Shown here: positions 2,082 through 24,662 of the stretch, in pieces
Numbering within the stretch: position 1 is the first letter of the stretch
Layout: every line of letters starts with the position of its first letter
Virus record (IMG/VR): IMGVR_UViG_3300025872_000279
Location: 1-25,305 of that record
From: a virus
Strand: one strand, 5' to 3'
DNA: 25,305 nt
Position numbers and translations under genes: made by a program
Notes under the pieces: model-generated
What the model saw: the letters and a program-made list of their open reading frames with translations, nothing else
Database searches by the model: none
What the model was told of the DNA's origin: nothing

Positions 2082-2422
2082 GACGGATCGGCGACCTCCT
2101 CAAACGTGGCCGTGATGGTGTCCGTCGTCGGCGTGGCCACCGTGCGCGTCCAAGAGCGGCAGAGAAAGTTCGACGACGAGCCAGCCCTCGGCGGTGTCCA
2201 CACAAAGGGCGTCACATGCGTCGCGTTCGTCACAAAGAACGCTTCGATCGTATCGGCGTCCGCCACCAGCACATTCGCGAAGGTGAGCTGCCAGACCTGG
2301 AGATCCGCATTCAGTCCGTCGGCGGCCCGCTGCTCATAGCCGTCGCCGAAGCGCGTGGCCAGCGTACGCGGCTTGCGCTGAGACGAGGCGGAGAAGGAGG
2401 GCGCGATGGTGAACGTCGCCAT
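2078..2422 (-). CDS. M: Minor tail protein M
   Basis: 114 aa, the usual length of lambda gpM. The signature RFGDGYEQRAADGLN at residues 24-38 is the hallmark of the phage minor tail family. The protein joins the tape measure complex to the L/K/I/J tip. The start shares one base with the tape measure stop (TAATG), so translation is probably coupled. Position between tape measure and L agrees with lambda order. Confidence 0.93.
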   Translation of the reverse strand: MATFTIAPSFSASSQRKPRTLATRFGDGYEQRAADGLNADLQVWQLTFANVLVADADTIEAFFVTNATHVTPFVWTPPRAGSSSNFLCRSWTRTVATPTTDTITATFEEVADPS

Positions 2423-4533
2423 TAGGCCATGCCTCCCGCCAGCAACCCGCCCGGGCGCTGCTCTTCAATCAGTTTCGCTTCCACCAACCGGCTCAGATCG
2501 CGCGCCAGCTTCGAGAAATTCGCCCCGTCGCCCGCGCCGCTTTGCTGCATGCCGCTGCCGGCATTGACCGTGATGGCGATGTTGATCCCGTTTCCGTTGC
2601 CTTGCTGCCCCGGTGTGCGGACTTCGACCGTCTCGCCGGGCGTGGCCCAGAACCCGACCGGCGTCCGATCCGTGCCGCCCGTCCCAGGCACGACGAACCG
2701 CCCGCCCGTGGCAAATCCGGTGCCGCTCGCTGCCAATGATGTCGTGAGCGCCGATTCCCCGCCGCCGAAGCCAAATCCCATCCCGGAGAAGGCCCCGACG
2801 AACGATTTCACCATGAGCTGTGCGCCCATCTGGGCCACGAGCTGATTGATGATCGTCAGGATGCTCTTGCCGATGTCCCGCAGCCGCTGCAGCCGCCCCT
2901 CGGCCGCGTCGAAGAGGAACTTCTGCACCCCCTGCTCGGCCGTCTGGAAGAACCGCCGCGACATATCGGACGCCATGCCGAACATGGATTGATCGGTCGC
3001 ATATTTGCGCAGCCCTTGCGCCCACCCGGCGAAGAAGTCGTCACTCGCCTGCTTGCTGGCGGCATCGACCCGTGTGAGGGTCTGGATCATCACCGTCTCT
3101 TTTTCCTGCTCCGTCAGCCTGGTGCGGGACAGAATCATGCGGGCCAGCTCGTCGTCCTTATTCTGCCAGGCGATCAGGAGATTCCCGGCGCTGCTCATTT
3201 CCAAATCCAGCCGCTGTGCGAGATTCGCCCGCACCAGCTCCATCTGATGGGTATAGACGAACTCCTGCGAGGCCCCGACCTGCTGGCCGTAATCCAGCCA
3301 GGCCTGCGCGTTCATCGCGAGGTCCGCCAGTTCGTTCTTCGCCATCTGCTGGCGATCCAGATCATATTTGACGAGCCCGCGCCCCAGCGCTTCCTGCTTA
3401 TGCCCGGAAATATCATCGATGCGCTGCTGCGTCGCCCACGTCTCCTCCATCGCCTGCCGGGCCTCAGCATTGCGCCGCGATTCGGCGTCAAACTCAATAT
3501 CATTGGCCCGGTTCTGTGCAAGGAAGATCTCCAGCTTCGCCCTGCCGAGCACTTCCTGCTCCTTCTCAAGCTGTTGCCGGACCCTGTATTGCCCGATAAA
3601 TTGCTCCGTGAGCCGTTTCCCGATCTCCTCTTGCTCTTTCGCTTGCGCCGGAGTCTGAAAATATGGAGGAGCCACCGCATTCTCAACACCAGGCGGAGCG
3701 GGCAAGATCCGAAGATTGCGGCCGCCCTCGTTCGGTTTGACCACGCCGATGCCCGAGTCCGTTTTCCCGAGCCCGGACAACGCGCCGGCGGCGGCATGCG
3801 CATCCTCAATGATCGTGCGGAGCGCGTGCGTGACCGCGTCAAACTTTGGAATGAGGGCGGTCCCGATGTCATTCGTGACGCCGCGAATCGCGCTCCCCAG
3901 CTTCGTCATTTCATCGTTGAAATGCTCCGCCGCCTTGGCGTCCTTTTCGCTCATCACCAGGCCGAGCTGATCCGCCTCGGCAAATGCCTCCCGCATGCTC
4001 GAATTAAGCAGCGGGAGCACATCCTTCCCCGTCTTGCCCAGGGACAGCATGGACAGCGCCGTCTTTTCAGGGCCGTCCGGCATGAGCCGGAACTTATCGT
4101 TCAGCTCCAGCAGGACCTGCGTCGTGCCCTTGAGCTGCCCGCTTGCTGTCACCACCGAAATACCCAGACGCTCGAAGGTCCGCTGCGCCTCCGCATTACC
4201 GGTCGAGGCTGACAGCATTTCCTTCGACAAGAACCCAACCGTTTTCGTGAGCCCCTGGAGATCGGTATCAGACAGCTTCGCCGCATATTGCAGCCGGGCC
4301 GTATCCTCGACGGTCGTGCCCATGCGCTGGCTGGCCTTGACGAGCTCGTCGCCATAGTTCGCGGTGCTCTTCGCCACGGCGAACAGCGCCGTGCCGGCGG
4401 CCGTCAGTTGTGTCTTCCAGTCCTTGATGAAGCTGTTGAATTGCCCCAGCGCGCCCTGGCTATTTTTCAATTCTTGGGTGAATTGATCACTGACCAATTT
4501 GAGGACTAATGCTAGCTCTCTATTTTCAGCCAT
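2422..4533 (-). CDS. H: Tail tape measure protein
   Basis: 703 aa. It sets tail length and is thought to pass into the cell with DNA. Evidence: position between tail chaperone and M; a long helical body rich in Ala, Gln, Glu and Lys; the N-terminal module LKLVSDQFTQELKNSQGALG; the motif DELVKASQRMGTTVEDTARLQ typical of tape measures; and a glycine-rich C-terminus (FATGGRFVVPGTGGTD near residue 610) shared by lambda-type tape measures. About 700 residues is somewhat shorter than lambda gpH (853 aa), so a shorter tail is expected. Its first 24 or so codons are strikingly A+T-rich (26 G+C in 73 bases, 4461-4533, hand count) compared with the rest, and its start overlaps the HNH gene by 8 bases. 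Confidence 0.93.
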   Translation of the reverse strand: MAENRELALVLKLVSDQFTQELKNSQGALGQFNSFIKDWKTQLTAAGTALFAVAKSTANYGDELVKASQRMGTTVEDTARLQYAAKLSDTDLQGLTKTVGFLSKEMLSASTGNAEAQRTFERLGISVVTASGQLKGTTQVLLELNDKFRLMPDGPEKTALSMLSLGKTGKDVLPLLNSSMREAFAEADQLGLVMSEKDAKAAEHFNDEMTKLGSAIRGVTNDIGTALIPKFDAVTHALRTIIEDAHAAAGALSGLGKTDSGIGVVKPNEGGRNLRILPAPPGVENAVAPPYFQTPAQAKEQEEIGKRLTEQFIGQYRVRQQLEKEQEVLGRAKLEIFLAQNRANDIEFDAESRRNAEARQAMEETWATQQRIDDISGHKQEALGRGLVKYDLDRQQMAKNELADLAMNAQAWLDYGQQVGASQEFVYTHQMELVRANLAQRLDLEMSSAGNLLIAWQNKDDELARMILSRTRLTEQEKETVMIQTLTRVDAASKQASDDFFAGWAQGLRKYATDQSMFGMASDMSRRFFQTAEQGVQKFLFDAAEGRLQRLRDIGKSILTIINQLVAQMGAQLMVKSFVGAFSGMGFGFGGGESALTTSLAASGTGFATGGRFVVPGTGGTDRTPVGFWATPGETVEVRTPGQQGNGNGINIAITVNAGSGMQQSGAGDGANFSKLARDLSRLVEAKLIEEQRPGGLLAGGMA

Positions 4534-5230
4534 GATTAACCTGCAACACTGGTTTCATGTCTACTCGCGCGCTCTTCCTGCGATTGCATGACGGACAGGC
4601 CAAGGCGAGATTGCTCGGCCAGTTTGAACCTCCTCTCGACAGAGGAATTATATGGTCCACCTGAAAATTTACTCCCAGATTCCCGAGGCAGTAGGCACAC
4701 CGATTTGATTGCAGGTTCAGAAGGTTCTCAATATCTGATGGCACCCAGCGGCCTTCGGCAGCTCGTTCTCGCGCCCGTCTTCGTTGCCATGCAGCACGAT
4801 AACGGAGTCTATTTTCTTTCCTATACTCACGACGATGTTCGATGTTTTTCTTGGCCCACTCGCGCCCTTTCACTCGATGCAATTCAAGATCGCGGCGCCG
4901 ACGGTCAAGAGCTTTTATCCGCTGCTCTTCCTTATGCTTCTCATACCAAGCCTTAAACGCAGCGGATCGCCTTGCAGCATTGCGCTTGCTATAGTCCTTT
5001 GCATACTGCTGGAGATGCTCTTTCTGGCGTGCTCGCCACTCCTTCATATAGGCCTGTCGGGACAGCCTCTTCCGCGCACGGTTCTCTTGATGCCACTTCG
5101 CGGCATATGACTTCATGCACGACTTACACCGACTAGTGAGCCCGCTCTTTTTCCTACCTCGATGAAATGCAGAACGTGGAAGCTCAAGACGACAAGCCAC
5201 GCAACGCACAAATTCACGATTATCCGCCAT
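4526..5230 (-). CDS. HNH endonuclease (probable free-standing homing endonuclease)
   Basis: 234 aa. Three regions are visible. A zinc-ribbon-like N-terminus has C10-x2-C13 and C35-x2-C38. A very basic helical linker (about 40-160) is rich in Arg, Lys and Tyr. The C-terminal HNH nuclease (about 175-221) has C178-x2-C181, the catalytic DH pair at 192-193 (QVDHIIPLSRGG), Asn207, and C212-x2-C215. All nuclease residues look intact. It lies between the exported-protein block and the tape measure, overlapping the latter by 8 bases. A 60-base line inside it (4621-4680) has 25 G+C, well below the core genes, which indicates separate origin. It could also have a packaging role, as some phage HNH proteins do, but its position far from the terminase favours homing. 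Confidence 0.93.
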   Translation of the reverse strand: MADNREFVRCVACRLELPRSAFHRGRKKSGLTSRCKSCMKSYAAKWHQENRARKRLSRQAYMKEWRARQKEHLQQYAKDYSKRNAARRSAAFKAWYEKHKEEQRIKALDRRRRDLELHRVKGREWAKKNIEHRREYRKENRLRYRAAWQRRRARERAAEGRWVPSDIENLLNLQSNRCAYCLGNLGVNFQVDHIIPLSRGGSNWPSNLALACPSCNRRKSARVDMKPVLQVNHG

Positions 5231-5251: not shown

Positions 5252-5518
5252 TTAGTCGGGTTTCTTCTCGCCTTCAGCCTTCGCAATCCGCTCCATCAGG
5301 AGCTTGACCTGCTGCTCCAGCGCCGTGCGCCGCGTGCGCTCCTGCTCGATCATCACGGCCAACTCCGCAATCTTCCGCTCCTCACCGTCCCGCTGCTTCT
5401 TGAGCATGGACAAATGGACCTCTTCGACCGGGCACGCCGTCTTGTCATCCGCCTGCGCCAGCGATCCCGCGATCAACACGATCACCAGCGCGCATACAAA
5501 GACTTTCGCGGCTAACAT
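5252..5518 (-). CDS. Small exported coiled-coil protein
   Basis: 88 aa. A Sec signal peptide is clear: MLAAK, a hydrophobic core VFVCALVIVLIAGSL, then the AXA site AQA at 21-23 before DDK. The mature part, about 65 residues, is almost wholly charged helix with heptad-like spacing (LKKQRDGEERKIAELAVMIEQ) and one Cys at residue 29. It overlaps the beta-helix gene by 7 bases and has AAGGGAG just upstream of the ATG. A periplasmic coiled coil of this size recalls spanin-like or envelope-tethered proteins, but no spanin partner is seen here and the function is unknown. It is probably co-expressed with the beta-helix protein. Confidence 0.75.
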   Translation of the reverse strand: MLAAKVFVCALVIVLIAGSLAQADDKTACPVEEVHLSMLKKQRDGEERKIAELAVMIEQERTRRTALEQQVKLLMERIAKAEGEKKPD

Positions 5519-7623
5519 GGAATCTCCCTTCGCATCCTGGTCGCCCAGGTCGTTTTAGTTTGCGCCGCCACCCGGCAGAACCCCGCCCAGCGTTGCGTTT
5601 GCTCCGCAATAAAGGCCGTGAGGTCATCGCGCAGGATGTCGAGGTCTGACCGACGCAGATTGATCGTAGGATTGAAGACAGGGGAGGACGTGCCCGCTCC
5701 TAATTCATACCCTGCTACGCCGAGATAGGTGGTCCGTGAGGCCCCAACCAGCACCCCGGTTGTGGCATTGGCAATCGTGCCATCGTTCGCCCCTTGCAAG
5801 TTGTTCGCATTGACCGTCGTAACACTATAGTCAATGACGCTGTAGCAATCCAATCGTTGGGGGCATGACCCGCCAGAGCCACCTGCATTCACAATCACGT
5901 TACTCTCAAGCGCGATCGGTCCATCTTGCGTGACAAGGTTTTCGATGCTGATTTGACCCCCGACCGCCGTATTGCGGTAGATCTGAATCCCGCCGATCTT
6001 GCTCGTGCGGGCATAGCCAATCACAAATGATCCTGTGCCCGATGCTGTCCCGGTCGCAAATGAGAGATTGTGATAGATCTCGCCCGTCGTGCGAACACGA
6101 GTCGCCTGCAATTCATCGGTGATCCAATAGGTCGGAGAGGTGCCGGCTGAGGTAATGTCAATCGCCGCGCCGCCATTGGTCAGTGACAACTGGAAGGTAT
6201 CAGTGGTCGCCCCCACTACATAATAGTCCGTGTCCCAAATCTCCAACCCGCCCGGTGCGGCGGTCCCGCCAATCCACTCAATAGACACATGGTTCCCGTT
6301 GCTCATGCCGTGCGCCGTGAGCGTAAAGGTATCCGTTCCGGCGTTGACAGTAGGCGTCCCAGACCCTTTCCTGTGCGTGGCCCCGCCAATGTATGGCGTC
6401 GAGTGTAAGTTGCCGCCCCAGCACGTTACCCCATCGGACTCACAGATATTCCCGCGAATGGTGATACTGTAATTCTCCGTTTTGGTGTTGAGTATTTCCG
6501 CATTCAGCGCGGATGTCTTTGCGCGGTTATGCTCCATCAACAGATAGTACGTACTATAGAGCTTTATCGCATCGGCGTTGTCTGTGGGCAGCACAGATCC
6601 CCCGCAACAGTCAGGATCTGCCGCGCCCCCATCGCCATGCACATATTCAAAGATATTGTTTTGGATCGTGTCGAAATATGACGGGCCAATGCCACTATTC
6701 ACATATTGGGATTGCAGAAACACAAACGAGCAATTCCCATCGTCGTAGCCGTCTTGGAGGTTATAAAACCAGTTCTTCCGAATGACGACGCCATAGGGGG
6801 AGGTATCGGTGCGGGCAATGCGAAATCCCAAACACTGGATGTTGGTGAATTTAATGCCGTCAAGCCACAGGTTTTTTGTGGACCCGTCAACATCGAACAT
6901 CTGGACTTGGTTGGAGCCCGTGGCCCCAAAATCGACGACCGGCTGGGCATCGCCAGGATAGGCCAACCAAATCACCGGCCTCAGACTTTCCCGCAACGCC
7001 ACCTTTTTCCGGTAGCCAGAATCTAGCCCCGTATTCTCCGTGTCATTCATGCCAAGCGTCGTATAATTCCCCGCTCGGAGGTAGAGCACCGTTCCCGCTC
7101 CGCAACTCGTCCAGGCTTTCCCTAACGTCTGCCACGGAGAGGCCAGCGTGCCGCTGCCAGTCGAATCGTTCCCGCTGGTGGCGTCGATAAAACACGCCCC
7201 CGTTGTCCCGACCGTAATGCTCCAGGTGCCCGTCACCTGAGTCCCGAGCGCATCGGTAATCGTCACGGTGATCGGACTTGTCGTGCCCGCCGTGGGAGAC
7301 GGCCAGGTAATCGTGCCCGCCGTGCATCCAGTCGGCCCAATGTCGGTACAGGGTCCAGCGGAAATCGTCATGCCGGAGGGAGCGCCGCTCAAACTGTAGG
7401 TGTACGGCCACTTCCCGCCCACGGCATCGGCGTGGATCTCATAGGGGATGCCGGTATAGGCGCGATAGATCCGGTTCGCGGAGTCCAGTCCAGACGCGGC
7501 GCTGGCACTCGTTGCCACAGGGCGCGCAATGCGGAGTGTTTGATAGGTGACAGCCAGCGCATCAGAGGCCGCCCATGCCATGAGCACCGCACAGAGTAGG
7601 ATACCGATTCGTGTTCGTGTCAT
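5512..7623 (-). CDS. Exported right-handed beta-helix protein with Ig-like domain, spike or depolymerase-like
   Basis: 703 aa. Signal peptide 1-24 (core IGILLCAVLMAWAA, cleavage DALA|VT). Residues about 55-138 look like a putative Ig/cadherin-like domain (YEIHADAVGGKWPYTYSLSG; ITVTITDALG). From about 144 (CFIDATSGNDSTGSGTLASP) begins a parallel beta-helix of the pectate-lyase/DUF1565 type with short asparagine-rich rungs to about 640. A separate module at about 422-498 (FTLTAHGMSNGNHVSIEW ... YYVVGATTDTFQLSL) is one often inserted in phage tail proteins. Such helices commonly bind or cut polysaccharide; no catalytic residues can be assigned by eye. The start overlaps the upstream gene as ATGA. 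A signal peptide on a phage-operon beta-helix is unusual. Confidence 0.85.
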   Translation of the reverse strand: MTRTRIGILLCAVLMAWAASDALAVTYQTLRIARPVATSASAASGLDSANRIYRAYTGIPYEIHADAVGGKWPYTYSLSGAPSGMTISAGPCTDIGPTGCTAGTITWPSPTAGTTSPITVTITDALGTQVTGTWSITVGTTGACFIDATSGNDSTGSGTLASPWQTLGKAWTSCGAGTVLYLRAGNYTTLGMNDTENTGLDSGYRKKVALRESLRPVIWLAYPGDAQPVVDFGATGSNQVQMFDVDGSTKNLWLDGIKFTNIQCLGFRIARTDTSPYGVVIRKNWFYNLQDGYDDGNCSFVFLQSQYVNSGIGPSYFDTIQNNIFEYVHGDGGAADPDCCGGSVLPTDNADAIKLYSTYYLLMEHNRAKTSALNAEILNTKTENYSITIRGNICESDGVTCWGGNLHSTPYIGGATHRKGSGTPTVNAGTDTFTLTAHGMSNGNHVSIEWIGGTAAPGGLEIWDTDYYVVGATTDTFQLSLTNGGAAIDITSAGTSPTYWITDELQATRVRTTGEIYHNLSFATGTASGTGSFVIGYARTSKIGGIQIYRNTAVGGQISIENLVTQDGPIALESNVIVNAGGSGGSCPQRLDCYSVIDYSVTTVNANNLQGANDGTIANATTGVLVGASRTTYLGVAGYELGAGTSSPVFNPTINLRRSDLDILRDDLTAFIAEQTQRWAGFCRVAAQTKTTWATRMRREIPC

Positions 7624-8366
7624 CTCCCCACCCCAAGTAGTCCAAGTTTTGGTGACGCCGCAGCCCCGCCTTCGGTCGTCAGCGCAATCGCAAACGCTTG
7701 CTTGTCGGTGATCGCTGCACCGCCCCAGGTCGAATCCATACTCCCGGTGGCGCTCGCACTCGCCAACGTCACACTGCCAATTTCCCGTTCAAACCGACCG
7801 GCCGCGCTGAAGATGTCATCTACATTGGAGGTCACGCCGGTCGGATTGCTCGGAGTACTGAGGGTATTCGACGCGGTACTGTGCACGCCATAAAACAAGA
7901 ACAGGACCGAGCTAGAATCCGCAGGGGTCAAGGTCGCCGCTCTGACCGTCGTATCGCTCGTCGTATACTGCGTCTGCACCACGGTAATGCCGGTTGAGCA
8001 GTTCCCTGATCCGCTATAGGCATACGCCACCATCGTGATCCCGGTACGATCTGCACCGGCCCACCCAACTGTGTAACTGGCGGGCTCACTGGACGCAATT
8101 CGGCAATAGATCCAATAGGTCGAAGCTGACGTAACGGACTGCTTGGCGACTTGCGTCCAGCCAGTCAACCCGCTATTCGGGTCCGTCGTAGACGACGTGC
8201 GCTTAATCATCATCCACAACACATTGCCGTCTGCCGTGCTTGTTGGGACATTGATGACTTGTGACGCTGTAGACGTACTATCGCCGTCAGCGCGGTTGAC
8301 AAAAGTCAATGCCCACGCCTGGCATGGCAAGAGGAGCGCAATACACAGAATCAGCACACGCAACAT
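7620..8366 (-). CDS. Exported protein of unknown function, all-beta
   Basis: 248 aa. Signal peptide 1-19 (VLILCIALLLP core, CQAWA|LT). The mature protein is Ser/Thr/Ala-rich and reads as a beta-sandwich (TFVNRADGDSTSTASQVINV; GNVLWMMIKRTSSTTDPNSG; ITMVAYAYSGSG; SSVLFLFYGVHS). This pattern resembles jelly-roll-like proteins seen in phage accessory regions, but I cannot name a family. AAGGAG lies 5 nt before the ATG. The stop overlaps the start of the beta-helix gene as ATGA, so the two are probably made together. Confidence 0.78.
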   Translation of the reverse strand: MLRVLILCIALLLPCQAWALTFVNRADGDSTSTASQVINVPTSTADGNVLWMMIKRTSSTTDPNSGLTGWTQVAKQSVTSASTYWIYCRIASSEPASYTVGWAGADRTGITMVAYAYSGSGNCSTGITVVQTQYTTSDTTVRAATLTPADSSSVLFLFYGVHSTASNTLSTPSNPTGVTSNVDDIFSAAGRFEREIGSVTLASASATGSMDSTWGGAAITDKQAFAIALTTEGGAAASPKLGLLGVGR

Positions 8367-8375
8367 AGAGACTCC

Positions 8376-8771
8376 TTACAGATACGCCGAGAGATAGGTG
8401 GCTTCAATGTCCGCCTTGAGCGCGGCCAGGTCCGTCGCCGCTTGCCCCGCCAACCCTAACCCTGCCAACGCCTGATACCGTGACACTTTCGCTTGCCACA
8501 CCTGTTGCGCAGTAGGTGCAGGATCGGCAATCGCACCGAGATTCACCGACTGCCCTACCGTCAAATTGTCGGCAATCGTTTTCACATCTGCGAGTGACTT
8601 AGCGGTCGCAATCGCCCAACGGCGAATCGAGGTCGCAGTGTCAGAGGGGCCGACCATATAATTCGCACGTTTTGTCACTTCTCCTGCGCCAGTAAACTCG
8701 ACCGTAATCTGAGTACGCCCATCAGGTAGTGCGGGGTCTTTCACAACCAGGGTTGCCGTGGTATAGGCCAT
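8376..8771 (-). CDS. Hypothetical virion-associated protein
   Basis: 131 aa, no signal peptide, unlike its neighbours. The N-terminal half reads as beta strands (ATLVVKDPALPDGRTQITVEF). The C-terminal part (about 90-131) is alanine-rich helix (WQAKVSRYQALAGLGLAGQA). Small two-part proteins of this type occur among tail-fibre-associated genes, but I do not recognise the family. AAGGAG sits 8 nt upstream of the ATG. It lies 12 bases after the stop of the 476-aa exported protein and 9 bases before the next start. Confidence 0.72.
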   Translation of the reverse strand: MAYTTATLVVKDPALPDGRTQITVEFTGAGEVTKRANYMVGPSDTATSIRRWAIATAKSLADVKTIADNLTVGQSVNLGAIADPAPTAQQVWQAKVSRYQALAGLGLAGQAATDLAALKADIEATYLSAYL

Positions 8772-8783
8772 GCTGAGTCTCCT

Positions 8784-10214
8784 TTATAACGCCGTCTTAA
8801 AGCCGATTGCCGTGACCGTCACTGTCGTGGCCGAGGCTGATGGGTCCATCGCCATAATGGTGTTCGCCGTCGTGCACAGTGGCGTCTGTAGCGGAACAAC
8901 TGCCCCGCCCATATTGGCGGCAGCGGGAATCGTGGCAATGACGCTGCCGGCGGTGCCGTCACGAATATCCACGGTCACGTTCGTCGCACTAGAATTACTC
9001 ACGATGAGCGTCGTCGCGCAGAATCGAATCCCCGCTCCTTGCGCCGCGACTAATGATGTGCTGGACCCGTCCGTGACGCCGACCACGGCACTGACGCGAT
9101 CCTCAAGGTTGGAATGCGGTCGCGTAATCAGCACGCCGTCAATCCCCGCATATAGATTCGTCCGGTCGCCGTCCGCCACTGCGGTCGCGCCTGAGATTGA
9201 CGTCTCTGCTTTTGCGCCCATCTTAATCGGGTTGCCCGCATCGGCGGCATCGTGCGCCACCGTGTTTTGCCCGCGCACGCGTGTCCAGTTCGTGCCATCA
9301 TGCTCATAGGGAATGACCAGCGAGAGGCTGGGCACCTGTGCCCCCGCGACCGTCCCGTCGTCGGTATCCGTCAAGCCACCTTGGCACCGATCCCAGGTCG
9401 AGCCGTCGTAGCACATCAAGAAGGCGGCCACGCCGGGGACGGTCGGGTTCGCGGTATTGTCGGCCAAAGCTGCCGCTGCAGGCAGTTCCGTGTTCGCACT
9501 CGTGGTCAATTCATTCGAGGCGTTGACGTTGGCCCCGCGCTCGTTGCCCGCCGCATCGCGGATCTGCCCGTATACTTCCCGCCTGGTCGAACAGCGGATC
9601 GGCCGCACGTTGTTTTCCGTGGTCGTGCCAGGCGTCGTATCGTCGAACTGACAGCCGATCAGCGCCGCCTTATTGATCGCGGCATCCGAGGCATGCACAA
9701 TGTCATCGATGAGCTGCAGCGCCGTGAGGGCCGCGCCACTTTCCTGTACGGCAAACGTTCCTGCGTTGGTGACATCTCCGCCGCCACCACCGCCTCCCCC
9801 GCCGCCACCCCCGCCGCCAAGCGCCGCCGTTGAGGCACGGGCGACGACGACGATCGTGCCGCCGTTGGCTGAAATAGGTGCGCGCACCTTGAGCAACCCC
9901 GCGACATTACATTGCAAAATTGCGCTGGCCGTGACACTACTGACACTGCCACCGGTCGCAATCGATGAACACTGCAGCGCGATATAGTTCGTGCCGTCGG
10001 CGGTGCCTTTCGGCGTGACGGTACCCGTATCAGAAACTGTGATCTGCAAAGCGAGGGAGTTATAGGCCTCGACATCGATGTCAGACCCATTCCCCGTCGA
10101 GGTTGTGCTTTGCAGCGTCGTCAGCGGCGTGATTTTCTCTTGCGCGTGCGCGACGGAGGCGCAGAGGAGACCGAGCGCCAGAATCAGACTCGCCAGATGC
10201 CATCGTCCCTTCAT
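8784..10214 (-). CDS. Exported phage structural-type protein with poly-glycine hinge
   Basis: 476 aa. Signal peptide 1-24 (LASLILALGLLCAS core, VAHA|QE). An N-terminal beta domain (about 30-130; VEAYNSLALQITVSDTGTV) is followed by 14 consecutive glycines (133-146). A middle region carries DGSTWDRCQGG and DGTNWTRVRGQN, the STWDRVRG-like pattern common in phage structural proteins. The C-terminal beta domain is TLIVSNSSATNVTVDIRDG ... PLCTTANTIMAM. Several Cys residues suggest disulfides, as expected of an exported protein. AAGGAGGGG lies 6 nt before the ATG. It begins 21 bases after the stop of the chaperone -1 extension. It may be a fibre or surface-displayed adhesin; function is unknown. Confidence 0.82.
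   Translation of the reverse strand: MKGRWHLASLILALGLLCASVAHAQEKITPLTTLQSTTSTGNGSDIDVEAYNSLALQITVSDTGTVTPKGTADGTNYIALQCSSIATGGSVSSVTASAILQCNVAGLLKVRAPISANGGTIVVVARASTAALGGGGGGGGGGGGGGDVTNAGTFAVQESGAALTALQLIDDIVHASDAAINKAALIGCQFDDTTPGTTTENNVRPIRCSTRREVYGQIRDAAGNERGANVNASNELTTSANTELPAAAALADNTANPTVPGVAAFLMCYDGSTWDRCQGGLTDTDDGTVAGAQVPSLSLVIPYEHDGTNWTRVRGQNTVAHDAADAGNPIKMGAKAETSISGATAVADGDRTNLYAGIDGVLITRPHSNLEDRVSAVVGVTDGSSTSLVAAQGAGIRFCATTLIVSNSSATNVTVDIRDGTAGSVIATIPAAANMGGAVVPLQTPLCTTANTIMAMDPSASATTVTVTAIGFKTAL
9777..9818 (-). repeat. Tract coding 14 consecutive glycines
   Basis: Fourteen GGN codons in a row: 7 GGC, 3 GGT, 2 GGG and 2 GGA. The mixture of codons shows that the tract is not a fresh slippage expansion of one triplet but has been kept at the protein level, as expected for a flexible hinge between two folded domains of the 476-aa exported protein. 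Confidence 0.95.
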
Positions 10215-10235: not shown

Positions 10236-10643
10236 TTATTTCCCCGGTCCCGGACAGCGCCGGCATCCTGAGACCCAGAGCGCATCCGGCCCGTAAAACG
10301 CCCGGCACAACGGCACCAATTTCTGATGACAGGCCTCTCCGATGGCCTGCTCCTCCATGACGCGCCCCTTGCCCGCTCTCAACCAGGGCAGCTCGACCCC
10401 ACAGAATCCAAGGATGGCCCGCTCGGCGGAGCGGTGCTCGATCCGTCGCTGCAAATATCGCTCACAATCGTCCGGTCCCCACTCGGTGAGGATGGTGCGG
10501 AGCTTGGTGACGTCTCCATCGCTGAGGAGGACGAGACATTCCGCGACCCATTCGCGATAGCCAAGGCGAGGGCCTTCCGTCGCAGCGCCCGGATCTGCTC
10601 CCCGGACAGCATCCCGACGAGACTCTCGTAGGGATGGATGAAA
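10236..10643 (-). CDS. Tail assembly chaperone extension (GT-type), reached by -1 frameshift
   Basis: An open -1 frame runs from the nine-T run to TAA at 10236 with no stop, adding 135 residues to the first 105 of the G-like protein (about 240 aa in all). It has no ATG or GTG start that would explain independent translation of its beginning. Its body reads like real protein (GYREWVAECLVLLSDGDVTKLRT; AIGEACHQKLVPLCRAFYG) and uses mainly G/C third positions from about 10560 onward. The stop at 10236 lies 21 bases before the next gene, matching the tight packing here, while the zero-frame stop at 10379 would leave 164 bases. In lambda, G and GT chaperones are made by the same -1 strategy and load the tape measure. 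Confidence 0.68.
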   Translation of the reverse strand, partial: FHPSLRESRRDAVRGADPGAATEGPRLGYREWVAECLVLLSDGDVTKLRTILTEWGPDDCERYLQRRIEHRSAERAILGFCGVELPWLRAGKGRVMEEQAIGEACHQKLVPLCRAFYGPDALWVSGCRRCPGPGK

Positions 10644-10957
10644 AAAAAATCCCGGCCCGCCGCGAGAATGTCGTCCACCGGATTGCCCGCCAGGGCGCGC
10701 GCCAGCGTGGCGATCGCCGCCCAGTCCTGCGCGGACTTATCCCGGCGTGTCTGCCCGACTTCGATCAAGGCAATGGCCAGCAAGAGGTGCCCCCGCTGGC
10801 GCAGCAATTCATGTAGCCGCAGCTCGTCGATCTCGCCCAGATCGACATCGAAGAGCACATGCTCCCCCATCCACTGGGCCTGTTGGAACGACAGGCGCTC
10901 CATGCGGTACTGCACGCCGTCGAATTCGTAGATTTTTGCGGTCGTCGTCTGCTCCAC
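10379..10957 (-). CDS. Tail assembly chaperone, G-like
   Basis: 192 aa in the zero frame. It starts at GTG (10957) with AAGGGA about 6 nt upstream; ORF sequence 5' of this belongs to the tail tube gene in another frame. It is positioned between tail tube and tape measure, as lambda G. The body to about residue 130 is helical and chaperone-like (YEFDGVQYRMERLSFQQAQWM; ELLRQRGHLLLAIALIEVG). After about residue 132 it turns into a low-complexity Ser/Pro run that looks like out-of-frame reading, so the full zero-frame tail may be short-lived or the frame switch may be used often. A nine-T run at codons 103-106 is a candidate slip site. Confidence 0.72.
   Translation of the reverse strand: MEQTTTAKIYEFDGVQYRMERLSFQQAQWMGEHVLFDVDLGEIDELRLHELLRQRGHLLLAIALIEVGQTRRDKSAQDWAAIATLARALAGNPVDDILAAGRDFFFIHPYESLVGMLSGEQIRALRRKALALAIANGSRNVSSSSAMETSPSSAPSSPSGDRTIVSDICSDGSSTAPPSGPSLDSVGSSCPG
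10641..10649 (-). promoter_or_regulatory. Candidate slippery site (nine T) for -1 frameshift
   Basis: On the coding strand the codons are GAT TTT TTT TTC, giving a T-TTT-TTT heptamer in the correct register for a -1 slip (X-XXY-YYZ form). A nine-base T run is out of character in this GC-rich gene. Slippage by ribosome or RNA polymerase would join the G-like frame to the open -1 frame. An assembly error in a homopolymer would look the same. Confidence 0.6.
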
Positions 10958-10976
10958 GGTCGTTCCCTTTTGCCTC

Positions 10977-11924
10977 TTACGTGAACGCCAGCACGAGCTC
11001 ATCGTTGCCGCTGCTGCGGTTGAACCGGCCATCGACGGTGAAGATGCCGAGCCCGTCACGGCCGCCCGGTGTCACTTTGGTGTATTGCGCTTTCGGCGCG
11101 GTGATGGTGCAGATGTTCCCGGCGGTCGCCCCGACGGCCACGGAGAGCGCCCCTTCTGTATTCGCCAGCATCTTGCCGTAGTAATCGTGCGTTGCCACCA
11201 ACTCCTTCTCCGGGTCAAAGGAGAAGGTCGGTTTCCTGTTCGTAATCAGATATGAGAGCAGCCCGGACGAGAGCGTGATGTCCTGACGAGGAGCCAGGCT
11301 GTTGCCCAAATCGATATTGAAGCTCGAGACCTTGTGCGCATAGGTGTGCATGGTGAACGAGGTCGAGAGGAACGCGGGCGGGAGCGTGGTTTCGAGCCCG
11401 CTGGGCGTGAGGCCCGCCGCATCCGCCGTCGCCACATAGGCCCCCTGGAAGGTGAATTCCAGATAGACCTGCTGGCCGGACTTCGCATTGATCTTGAAGG
11501 TGCCCCGCGCTCCGACCATCCGCTCGCGGATCTGATTGCCGCTGGCTGGGACGCTATATACATCGATGGTCAGCGAGTCGATCCCGACAGAAAGCGGGTT
11601 ATAGGTGACACTGGTGACCGCCACGACCGTTTCGCTGAACCCGCAGGCCTTCAAGAGCTTCCCGATCGCCGGGGCCGTGCCCGCCGTGCCGGAGCCTTTC
11701 AGCTCGACCTTGAATGAGATGCGCGCCTTGCGCATGCCCGCGATGGAGGCATAGGGCGAGAGGGTGGATGAGATCGGATTGCGGTCGGTCTGGTCGATGT
11801 CCGGCTCGAACTTCACGTCCTCGACGAGCAGATTGCAGTCGGCCGCGAGCGGCGCGTTCGCCGTCCCTTCGGCGCTTTCCACCTTGGAGCCGAGGATCAT
11901 CCGGCGTTCTAAAAACTCAGCCAT
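10977..11924 (-). CDS. Major tail tube protein
   Basis: 315 aa. Position between the U-position terminator and the chaperone gene identifies the tube subunit (lambda V place). The sequence is beta-rich with alternating hydrophobics (KARISFKVELKGSGTAGTAP; GQQVYLEFTFQGAYVA; ISTAGLF-like strands near the end) and an N-terminal arm (AEFLERRMILGSKVESAEGT) typical of siphovirus tubes. It is longer than lambda gpV (246 aa), suggesting an added domain, probably near the C-terminus. AAGGAG lies 8 nt before the ATG. The subunit stacks in hexameric rings around the tape measure. Confidence 0.82.
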   Translation of the reverse strand: MAEFLERRMILGSKVESAEGTANAPLAADCNLLVEDVKFEPDIDQTDRNPISSTLSPYASIAGMRKARISFKVELKGSGTAGTAPAIGKLLKACGFSETVVAVTSVTYNPLSVGIDSLTIDVYSVPASGNQIRERMVGARGTFKINAKSGQQVYLEFTFQGAYVATADAAGLTPSGLETTLPPAFLSTSFTMHTYAHKVSSFNIDLGNSLAPRQDITLSSGLLSYLITNRKPTFSFDPEKELVATHDYYGKMLANTEGALSVAVGATAGNICTITAPKAQYTKVTPGGRDGLGIFTVDGRFNRSSGNDELVLAFT

Positions 11925-18816: not shown

Positions 18817-18984
18817 TTAGGCGTGCAACACATGCCGAACCGGTTCCTGGGCTTTCGGCGCTTGGCGGCGGGTCATCGTGTCGATGCGCGTAACGCCCCC
18901 CTGCCAGCACTCAATGACGATTTGCCCGGTGAATCCCGTCGGCAGCATCTTGATCTCTTCTTCAGTCCAGCATGGCAATTTCAT
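18817..18984 (-). CDS. DUF2292/YezD-like miniprotein
   Basis: 55 aa from the ATG at 18984. The segment LPTGFTGQIVIECWQGGVTRIDTMTRR resembles the small DUF2292 (YezD) domain, which has the form GxVxIxIxDGKVVxIExTxK. Function of that family is unknown. Upstream open frame to 19248 lies over the helix-turn-helix gene and is a shadow. No clear ribosome site precedes the ATG; a GGGTGG sequence is partly inside a hairpin. The gene is flanked by a weak terminator upstream and a strong one downstream, so it may be a separate small transcription unit. Confidence 0.6.
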   Translation of the reverse strand: MKLPCWTEEEIKMLPTGFTGQIVIECWQGGVTRIDTMTRRQAPKAQEPVRHVLHA

Positions 18985-18991
18985 ATGCTGC

Positions 18992-19005
18992 GTGGTGAGT
19001 ACCAC
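18992..19005 (-). promoter_or_regulatory. Short hairpin just upstream of the miniprotein start
   Basis: GTGGT, a 4-base loop, ACCAC: a 5-bp stem ending 7 bases before the ATG at 18984. On the coding strand its left arm is part of GGGGTGGT, the only SD-like sequence for this gene, so the hairpin could limit translation. The stem is short and could arise by chance. Confidence 0.35.
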
Positions 19006-19015
19006 CCCGTTTTCT

Positions 19016-19034
19016 AAAAAACAACCGGGTTGTT
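19016..19034 (-). terminator. Weak intrinsic terminator after the helix-turn-helix gene
   Basis: On the minus strand AACAAC-CCG-GTTGTT forms a 6-bp stem with a 3-base loop and runs into TTTTTT. It starts 12 bases after the stop of the DNA-binding gene. The stem has only two G-C pairs, so termination would be partial. Confidence 0.5.
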
Positions 19035-19045
19035 GCAACGGTAGT

Positions 19046-19366
19046 TTAGTCGCGCACTTTTCGCTGGAGATACTCCACCATGAACCGTAACAACTCAGCA
19101 CGCAGCACATAGCGCTCGCCGATGTTATCCCGAAAGAATCCCAGCTTCCCGCTTCCCAGGTAATAGTGCACGGTGCCACGATTAATCCGCAGCAGCGCCG
19201 CGATGGCCGCCGGGCTGAAACATGGGAACGTCGGCACCCGCACCACATCCGGCACGACGACGGGCGCGGCGGGAGCTGGTGTAGGCTGCGTGCCTGGCAC
19301 TTCAGCAGGCAGCGCCGACTTCGACGGCCTCCCCATCCAGCCCCTGCGTCCGGCGTGCCAGGTCAT
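19046..19366 (-). CDS. Helix-turn-helix DNA-binding protein, excisionase/MerR-like
   Basis: 106 aa. The N-terminal 45 residues are Pro/Ala/Val-rich and probably disordered (EVPGTQPTPAPAAPVVVPDV). The C-terminal domain (about 50-104) reads as the helix-turn-helix of the excisionase/HTH_17 group: FSPAAIAALLRINRGTVHYY, a short wing (FRDNIGERYVLRAELLRFM) and a final helix. It should bind DNA as a regulator or structural factor. The ATG follows the previous stop directly (TAAATG). Possible roles are late-gene regulation or terminase-site binding; neither is shown. Confidence 0.75.
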   Translation of the reverse strand: MTWHAGRRGWMGRPSKSALPAEVPGTQPTPAPAAPVVVPDVVRVPTFPCFSPAAIAALLRINRGTVHYYLGSGKLGFFRDNIGERYVLRAELLRFMVEYLQRKVRD

Positions 19367-24178: not shown

Positions 24179-24430
24179 CTAGTTTCCGCCAAACCGGTTG
24201 AGTTGAAATGTTTCGCCGACTTTCCCCCACCATCCACACCGCTTGAATCGCCCGCTTGGGCTGTCGAACGTGGTGATGACCTTGTATCCGGATAGGCAAC
24301 GATCCGTTTCCTCGATTGCCACGACGGTCACCTGTTCAGTACAGGCAACCATCACGGCACAGAGCAGGAGCAGAACAGCGGCTTTCATAAATGAGCAGAG
24401 CGCATGCGACCGCAGTGCTTGTTCTTTCAT
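24179..24430 (-). CDS. Probable lipoprotein
   Basis: 83 aa from the ATG at 24430, preceded by GGAGG 5 nt away. The segment MKAAVLLLLCAVMVAC followed by TEQ is a lipoprotein-type signal with Cys30 the likely lipidated residue. An internal ATG at 24388 begins exactly there and would give a tidier signal, but has a weak ribosome site. The mature part (about 54 residues) has two further Cys and is beta-like (VTVVAIEETDRCLSGYKVIT). Small phage lipoproteins often block superinfection; that is only a possibility here. Confidence 0.66.
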   Translation of the reverse strand: MKEQALRSHALCSFMKAAVLLLLCAVMVACTEQVTVVAIEETDRCLSGYKVITTFDSPSGRFKRCGWWGKVGETFQLNRFGGN

Positions 24431-24449
24431 CTCCGCCTCCATCGCGCAT

Positions 24450-24662
24450 TTACGATCCACCAAGAGGCTCCCCTGGACCGATCCACTTCATTTCGCCAGT
24501 CGCCACATCCGCCACAGGCAGCAGCTGAACTCGAAAGGCTGGGCGTTTCGTCTCTTGCGGTTGATCGAGATAGGCATTCCACCAACAGCTCAGCGCATAG
24601 GATTCGATCTCGTTCTCCGCGATCACCGACAGATCCCCATTCGCATCAATCGTCGCTTTCAT
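24450..24662 (-). CDS. Hypothetical small protein
   Basis: 70 aa. MKATIDANGDLSVIAENEIE, then YALSCWWNAYLDQ, and KRPAFRVQLLPVADVATGEM. The short beta-hairpin start (MKATIDANGDLSVIAE) with a following helix resembles many phage small proteins but no family is certain. It overlaps the small terminase stop as ATGA. Its 3' end precedes the lipoprotein start by 19 bases. Confidence 0.68.
   Translation of the reverse strand: MKATIDANGDLSVIAENEIESYALSCWWNAYLDQPQETKRPAFRVQLLPVADVATGEMKWIGPGEPLGGS

Follow-up and report, generated by a model that had tools for sequence, protein, structure and literature searches.

Gene content of the block and its borders

The 25.3 kb viral contig analysed here (IMG/VR record IMGVR_UViG_3300025872_000279; 25,305 nt, referred to below as the window) carries all of its late genes on the minus strand, in the order terminase, portal, capsid, tail tube, tail chaperone, a block of five genes designated A to E, an HNH gene and the tape measure gene. 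The names of the head genes rest on their order and on matches to relatives. The subject of this analysis is the block, whose five open reading frames (ORFs) are all present on the minus strand at 5252-10214, and in which four of the predicted products (A, C, D and E) begin with a candidate Sec signal peptide (SP).

Gene A (8784-10214, 476 residues) opens with an SP at residues 1-24 (10143-10214; MKGRWHLASLILALGLLCASVAHA followed by Q, cut between VAHA and QEK, score 6.04). A beta domain at about residues 30-130 and a hinge of 14 glycines (9777-9818), the poly-glycine hinge of the earlier note, precede a phage-adhesin family region at about residues 150-476 that contains the module RDAAGNERGANV. 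The mature part holds eight cysteines (82, 102, 188, 208, 268, 277, 399 and 447); going by their spacing along the chain, candidate disulfide pairs are 82-102, 188-208, 268-277 and 399-447. Gene B (8376-8771, 131 residues) has neither an SP nor a cysteine and is possibly a cytosolic accessory protein. Gene C (7620-8366, 248 residues) combines an SP (8310-8366; MLRVLILCIALLLPCQAWA followed by L, cut between AWA and LTF, score 6.63) with a probable all-beta domain, two mature cysteines and a C-terminal LGLLGVGR motif (7623-7646) that is common to neighbours of A-type genes with and without SPs. No match to C was found among phage records.

Gene D (5512-7623, 703 residues) is the largest of the five, with an SP (7552-7623; MTRTRIGILLCAVLMAWAASDALA followed by V, cut between ALA and VTY or between AWA and ASD, score 6.17, the predictor itself cutting at AWA), an Ig-like region, a probable beta-helix and 14 mature cysteines. 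Residues 425-495 correspond to the phage 'GTDTFTLTAHGMSNG' domain (PHROG 4711, 9e-8; PHROG 9370, tail fibre, 7e-5). Relatives of D were found neither in viral contigs, nor in five Nitrospira-type genomes, nor by sequence in the PDB, and BLASTP against the beta-helix-type proteins at the same site in two related loci, L104 and L211, produced no convincing match (E 0.63 and 0.003). The beta-helix protein proposed for this block is plausible, although D has no beta-helix profile match of its own. An origin of D as a host gene found no support in the search of those five genomes. Gene E (5252-5518, 88 residues) consists of an SP (5450-5518; MLAAKVFVCALVIVLIAGSLAQA followed by D, cut between AQA and DDK, score 6.72) and a short charged coiled-coil-like segment with one cysteine. 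A reading of E as a lipoprotein was ruled out by the lack of a lipobox.

The position of the block between tail chaperone and tape measure was confirmed by profile matches and by a T9 slippery run. The chaperone gene lies at 10379-11059, or at 10236-11059 with its -1 extension. The T9 run occupies 10641-10649; from 10649 down to 10236 the -1 frame stays open for 137 codons. Such a combination usually marks a frameshifted chaperone, and a programmed frameshift of the gpG-gpGT type is likely here. Upstream of it is the tail tube gene (10977-11924; Pfam Phage_tube_2, 1e-15; PHROG 290, 1e-23), while the downstream border of the site is the tape measure gene (2422-4533; PHROG 8462, 2e-42). The HNH endonuclease gene (endonuclease VII-like; 4526-5230) between E and the tape measure gene is probably a homing gene outside the cassette.

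The tight coupling of these genes was also borne out. Only 21 bp separate the end of the chaperone frameshift ORF (10236) from the start of A (10214), followed by gaps of 12 bp between A and B and 9 bp between B and C, overlaps of C with D and of D with E, 21 bp between E and the HNH gene, and an overlap of the HNH gene with the tape measure gene. Because of this spacing the block is most likely co-transcribed with the tail genes, and since it is fused into the tail operon in this way its products should be made late.

Signal peptides, cysteines and the pairing of A with C

Signal peptides were called with a rule-based predictor that scores n-region charge, an uncharged nine-residue core and A-x-A type cleavage. 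A, C, D and E score 6.0-6.7, each with the n-region, h-region and A-x-A type site of a Sec substrate cleaved by signal peptidase I, and B receives no score. On calibration with 81 genes of Escherichia coli K-12, a score of at least 4.4 recovered all eight known exported proteins and no cytosolic ones, with two polytopic membrane proteins miscalled. Other phages sharing the tail tube family gave no SP calls in 392 genes of at least 150 residues, and none of 6300 shuffled N-termini reached 6.0. The only other window genes to score are a lipoprotein-like ORF (24179-24463; 4.8) and a doubtful ORF (18817-19248; 3.1). No membrane segment was found in the mature parts of A, C, D and E, and no lipobox cysteine stands at position +1 of their cleavage sites, as it would in a lipoprotein of the Llp type. 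With controls this clean, there is a strong case that the four predicted SPs, which the earlier note had seen in four of the five genes, are not due to chance.

The cysteines of the A family provide a second line of evidence. The module RDAAGNERGANV occurs in many viral contigs, and residues 164-476 of A align with the SP-free protein of L123 at 41.6% identity (E 2e-53), which by module and mature-region homology places A in the RDAAGN phage-adhesin family. Members were picked with a motif free of cysteine, [IL]RDAAGN[ED], giving 17 with an SP and 42 without. At least four cysteines are present in 16 of the 17 and in 6 of the 42 (Fisher 1e-8). Three of the six exceptions (L115, L135 and L166) appear by eye to have SPs that the rule missed, and a fourth, L120, looks lipoprotein-like. 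Even cysteine counts, as would result from the pairing of cysteines in disulfides, were found in 39 of 42 exported proteins against 120 of 196 SP-free ones (proteins of at least 150 residues with at least two cysteines, in the loci studied). In a tree built from 61 members, the SP label changes at least seven times on supported branches, and cysteine content tracks it in five to seven of seven independent pairs and runs in the opposite direction in none. The pair C399/C447 of A is kept in the SP-bearing protein of L215, and the SP-free protein of L123 has Y and P at these positions.

Within the block the signs of folding outside the reducing cytoplasm are the even, SP-linked cysteine counts of A (8), C (2) and D (14); E has its single cysteine. 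The cysteines point to folding of the SP-bearing forms outside the cytoplasm, and do so independently of the SP predictor. There is thus good support for export and disulfide formation from the SPs, the even SP-linked cysteine counts, the joint change of SP and cysteines on the tree and the matching SP status of A- and C-type proteins described below. A further feature of SP-bearing A-family members is that glutamine is common directly after the predicted cleavage site, for example in L109, L125, L148, L158, L161 and A of the window.

A C-terminal motif of the LLGVG type was found in 23 of 6771 ORFs, against two at internal cuts, and mostly in proteins near A-type genes. Where A carries an SP, so does its C-type partner, in the window and in L109, L125, L140, L148, L158, L160 and L161, the exception being L122; where A lacks one, so does the partner (L110, L121, L138, L152, L163, L167, L172, L174, L175 and L177). 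The SP status of partners was judged by start codon, and several partner SPs were assigned by eye, their n-region or cleavage site failing the strict rule. The best explanation of these sequences is that A and C are the export form of a gene pair whose products stay in the cytoplasm in other phages. Interpretation of the LLGVG tail as a PEP-CTERM signal was ruled out, as neither a membrane segment nor a basic tail follows the motif.

Public records include further A-type proteins. Those of some uncultured phages, for example MW202601 and MW202554, annotated as 'glycoprotein repeat domain-containing protein', have the module RDAAGNERGANV and ELPAAAALAD..NPTVPGV in common with A, and such genes often have a C-type neighbour. 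Most A-type proteins are without SP and cysteines, whereas A of the window and MW202554 represent the exported, cysteine-rich form.

The same site in phages of Nitrospiraceae

Relatives of the tape measure protein in named genomes lie in Nitrospira or Nitrospirae assemblies, save for one short match in an archaeal assembly, and further relatives were found in 21 of 175 genomes of the Nitrospira family. Judged by these matches, the relatives of the window are phages of Nitrospiraceae. Among cultured phages no close relative was found, the tape measure matches being remote.

Searching related phages at the same tail position recovered SP-bearing proteins in L102, L104 and L211 and partly in L090. 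In L104 and L102 the interval from chaperone to tape measure encodes an eight-cysteine A-type protein and a long SP-bearing protein of beta-helix type (in L104 with a match to Pfam Beta_helix, 7e-10); the SP of the A-type protein is clear in L104 and was seen by eye in L102. L211, from a genome of the Nitrospira family, has the order tail tube, chaperone, A-type SP protein with ten cysteines, second SP protein, 20-cysteine protein with a borderline SP, and tape measure. L090 has two SP-like proteins at the site, and in L087 a homologue of E (42%) with an SP stands directly before the tape measure gene. SP-free proteins that are fibre-like or rich in repeats occupy the site in L006, L088 and L092, and it therefore appears to be a site of variable adhesin-like genes that are exported in some phages. 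Outside this site, A-type genes that begin with an SP or an SP-like stretch occur in L215 and L220, in other settings among Nitrospiraceae phages, and fibre-like TLTNKTLT proteins downstream of the tail tip carry Sec SPs in L090 (15931-18548, and its neighbour) and L092 (8178-9374). Domains found among the relatives include beta-helix, polysaccharide-lyase-like, TIG/fn3 and fibre-like repeats.

On the strength of these predicted SPs, comparable exported cassettes recur in many unrelated uncultured phages. The layout of the block, for which the earlier note knew of no described system, is accordingly not unique, being present in L102, L104, L211, partly L090 and, in comparable form, other phage types. 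A literature search that left most subscription papers and preprints uncovered turned up no account of an exported adhesin cassette within a tail operon. As a separate observation, SP-free proteins preceding the tape measure share repeats and a C-terminal 'G-LPT-V-G' stretch (L006, 12755-15487; L090, 8091-10001; L091, 24-512; L092, 921-1946).

Possible roles of the exported proteins

We propose that the block is a late cassette of adhesin- or spike-type proteins that use the host Sec pathway, are oxidised in the periplasm and meet the virions at lysis, a proposal whose chances we put at about even. Host Sec would carry A, C, D and E into the periplasm late in infection, and their SPs would be removed. 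There the proteins would form disulfides, a step that the cysteines support, presumably through oxidising enzymes in that compartment; export would thus add oxidative folding, which is not on offer in the cytoplasm. Once lysis opens the inner membrane, the finished proteins could meet tails assembled in the cytoplasm and dock onto them, with B, which has no SP, as a putative cytosolic partner. As the cell lyses anyway, the gain from export should lie in oxidative folding or in action on the envelope before lysis. The exported spike or depolymerase suggested by the earlier note fits the domains of the relatives and the late tail operon, and its export is strongly supported by the cysteines in addition to the SPs; docking onto virions is the part that we infer.

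Nearly as likely as virion-docking spikes are free or envelope-acting enzymes or adhesins. The corresponding account, to which we give a weight clearly short of even, places the exported proteins outside the virion, in or on the infected cell's envelope or, once the cell has lysed, in the medium. They might mask receptors against superinfection and against loss of progeny on debris, or cut the exopolysaccharide of the host so that progeny can spread. SPs and disulfides do put the proteins outside the cytoplasm before lysis, the relatives contain polysaccharide-lyase-like and beta-helix domains, and there are precedents in Lom, a phage outer-membrane protein (PMC12309495), and in purified gp38, which blocks adsorption of its own phage (PMC12946066). 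L161 (53-7502) also fits this account, as it encodes a cytosolic C-type LLGVG protein beside an MADN gene in addition to the exported A-C pair further on. On the other hand, neither a membrane anchor nor a lipobox is present in A, C, D and E. We favour spikes that join virions at lysis because the genes lie within the tail operon, because SP-free relatives of A and C are found within structural regions of other phages, and because the C-terminal motif is kept in forms with and without SPs.

Several points weigh against the proposal. Given the arrangement in L161, the exported copy may serve a different purpose. Tails in the cytoplasm and spikes in the periplasm would be kept apart until lysis, so that docking must be quick and tight. 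The start codons and cleavage sites of the block genes are predictions only; the A-family tree rests on 72 columns and has many weak forks; the LLGVG association was spotted and then tested in the same loci and needs a fresh test set; and the AlphaFold models, with mean pLDDT of 34 for D and 39 for C, are unusable.

Lysogenic conversion, in which expression of the block alters the surface of the lysogen, was the alternative raised in the earlier note and now seems improbable. Nitrospiraceae genomes do contain related sequences, in the form of prophages or prophage-like elements, and SP-bearing proteins of Porphyromonas gingivalis phages, of unknown function, have been read as possible modifiers of the host outer membrane (PMC10367356). 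However, the 21 bp between the -1 frame of the chaperone and A, followed by overlaps or gaps of 9-21 bp, leave no space for a promoter of its own, which makes a lysogen-only role unlikely. Least probable of all, and in our view very doubtful, is that the N-termini look like SPs without being exported and are hydrophobic anchors in the virion or signals for assembly. Tailed phages normally make their virion proteins in the cytoplasm, and the absence of SPs has been used in support of a phage origin of DGR adhesins (PMC6199706). Against this reading stand the A-x-A type cleavage sites, the even cysteine counts in the SP-bearing forms and the repeated joint change of SP and cysteines.

The proposed system resembles several known ones in part. 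Bor and T5 Llp are phage-encoded envelope proteins. As is predicted for the block proteins, they and lambda Lom are Sec-exported, and the Lom gene lies near tail genes; these are membrane proteins or lipoproteins, whereas the block proteins are predicted to be soluble, anchor-free, disulfide-rich and adhesin-like. The P. gingivalis phage proteins are likewise phage Sec substrates, often with Q at +1, but form no tail-operon cassette with cytosolic relatives. Tailspikes and side fibres of tailed phages have beta-helix and lectin-like domains, of the kind that the block proteins may also contain, and are likewise encoded among tail genes; they normally lack an SP. A further partial parallel is pIII of filamentous phages, a receptor-binding virion protein that is Sec-exported and disulfide-bonded; these phages assemble in the membrane, whereas this tailed phage would assemble in the cytoplasm.

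More generally, and with somewhat less confidence than for the block itself, we suggest that some tailed phages split virion assembly between cytoplasmic tails and Sec-exported, disulfide-bonded spikes that join at lysis, with many switches between cytosolic and exported forms. If true, recurring exported, disulfide-rich adhesins in tail operons would change the annotation of such genes, and would point either to a second way in which tailed phages assemble or to a use of free adhesins late in infection. The cassette also provides a testable entry point to the phages of Nitrospira-type nitrifiers.

Two minor observations concern other genes. The small lipoprotein-like ORF of the window (24179-24463, minus strand) lies near the packaging genes and has the N-terminus MKAAVLLLLCAVMVAC. 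In Nitrospira-type genomes, tape measure genes were also seen in elements with an integrase and a helix-turn-helix (HTH) gene (L095-L099, L212, L213, L214 and L217). Some of these carry an S49 peptidase gene and a TerS-like gene. In none of the elements was a gene for portal, TerL or capsid seen in the vicinity, and they are possibly phage satellites with their own tape measure.

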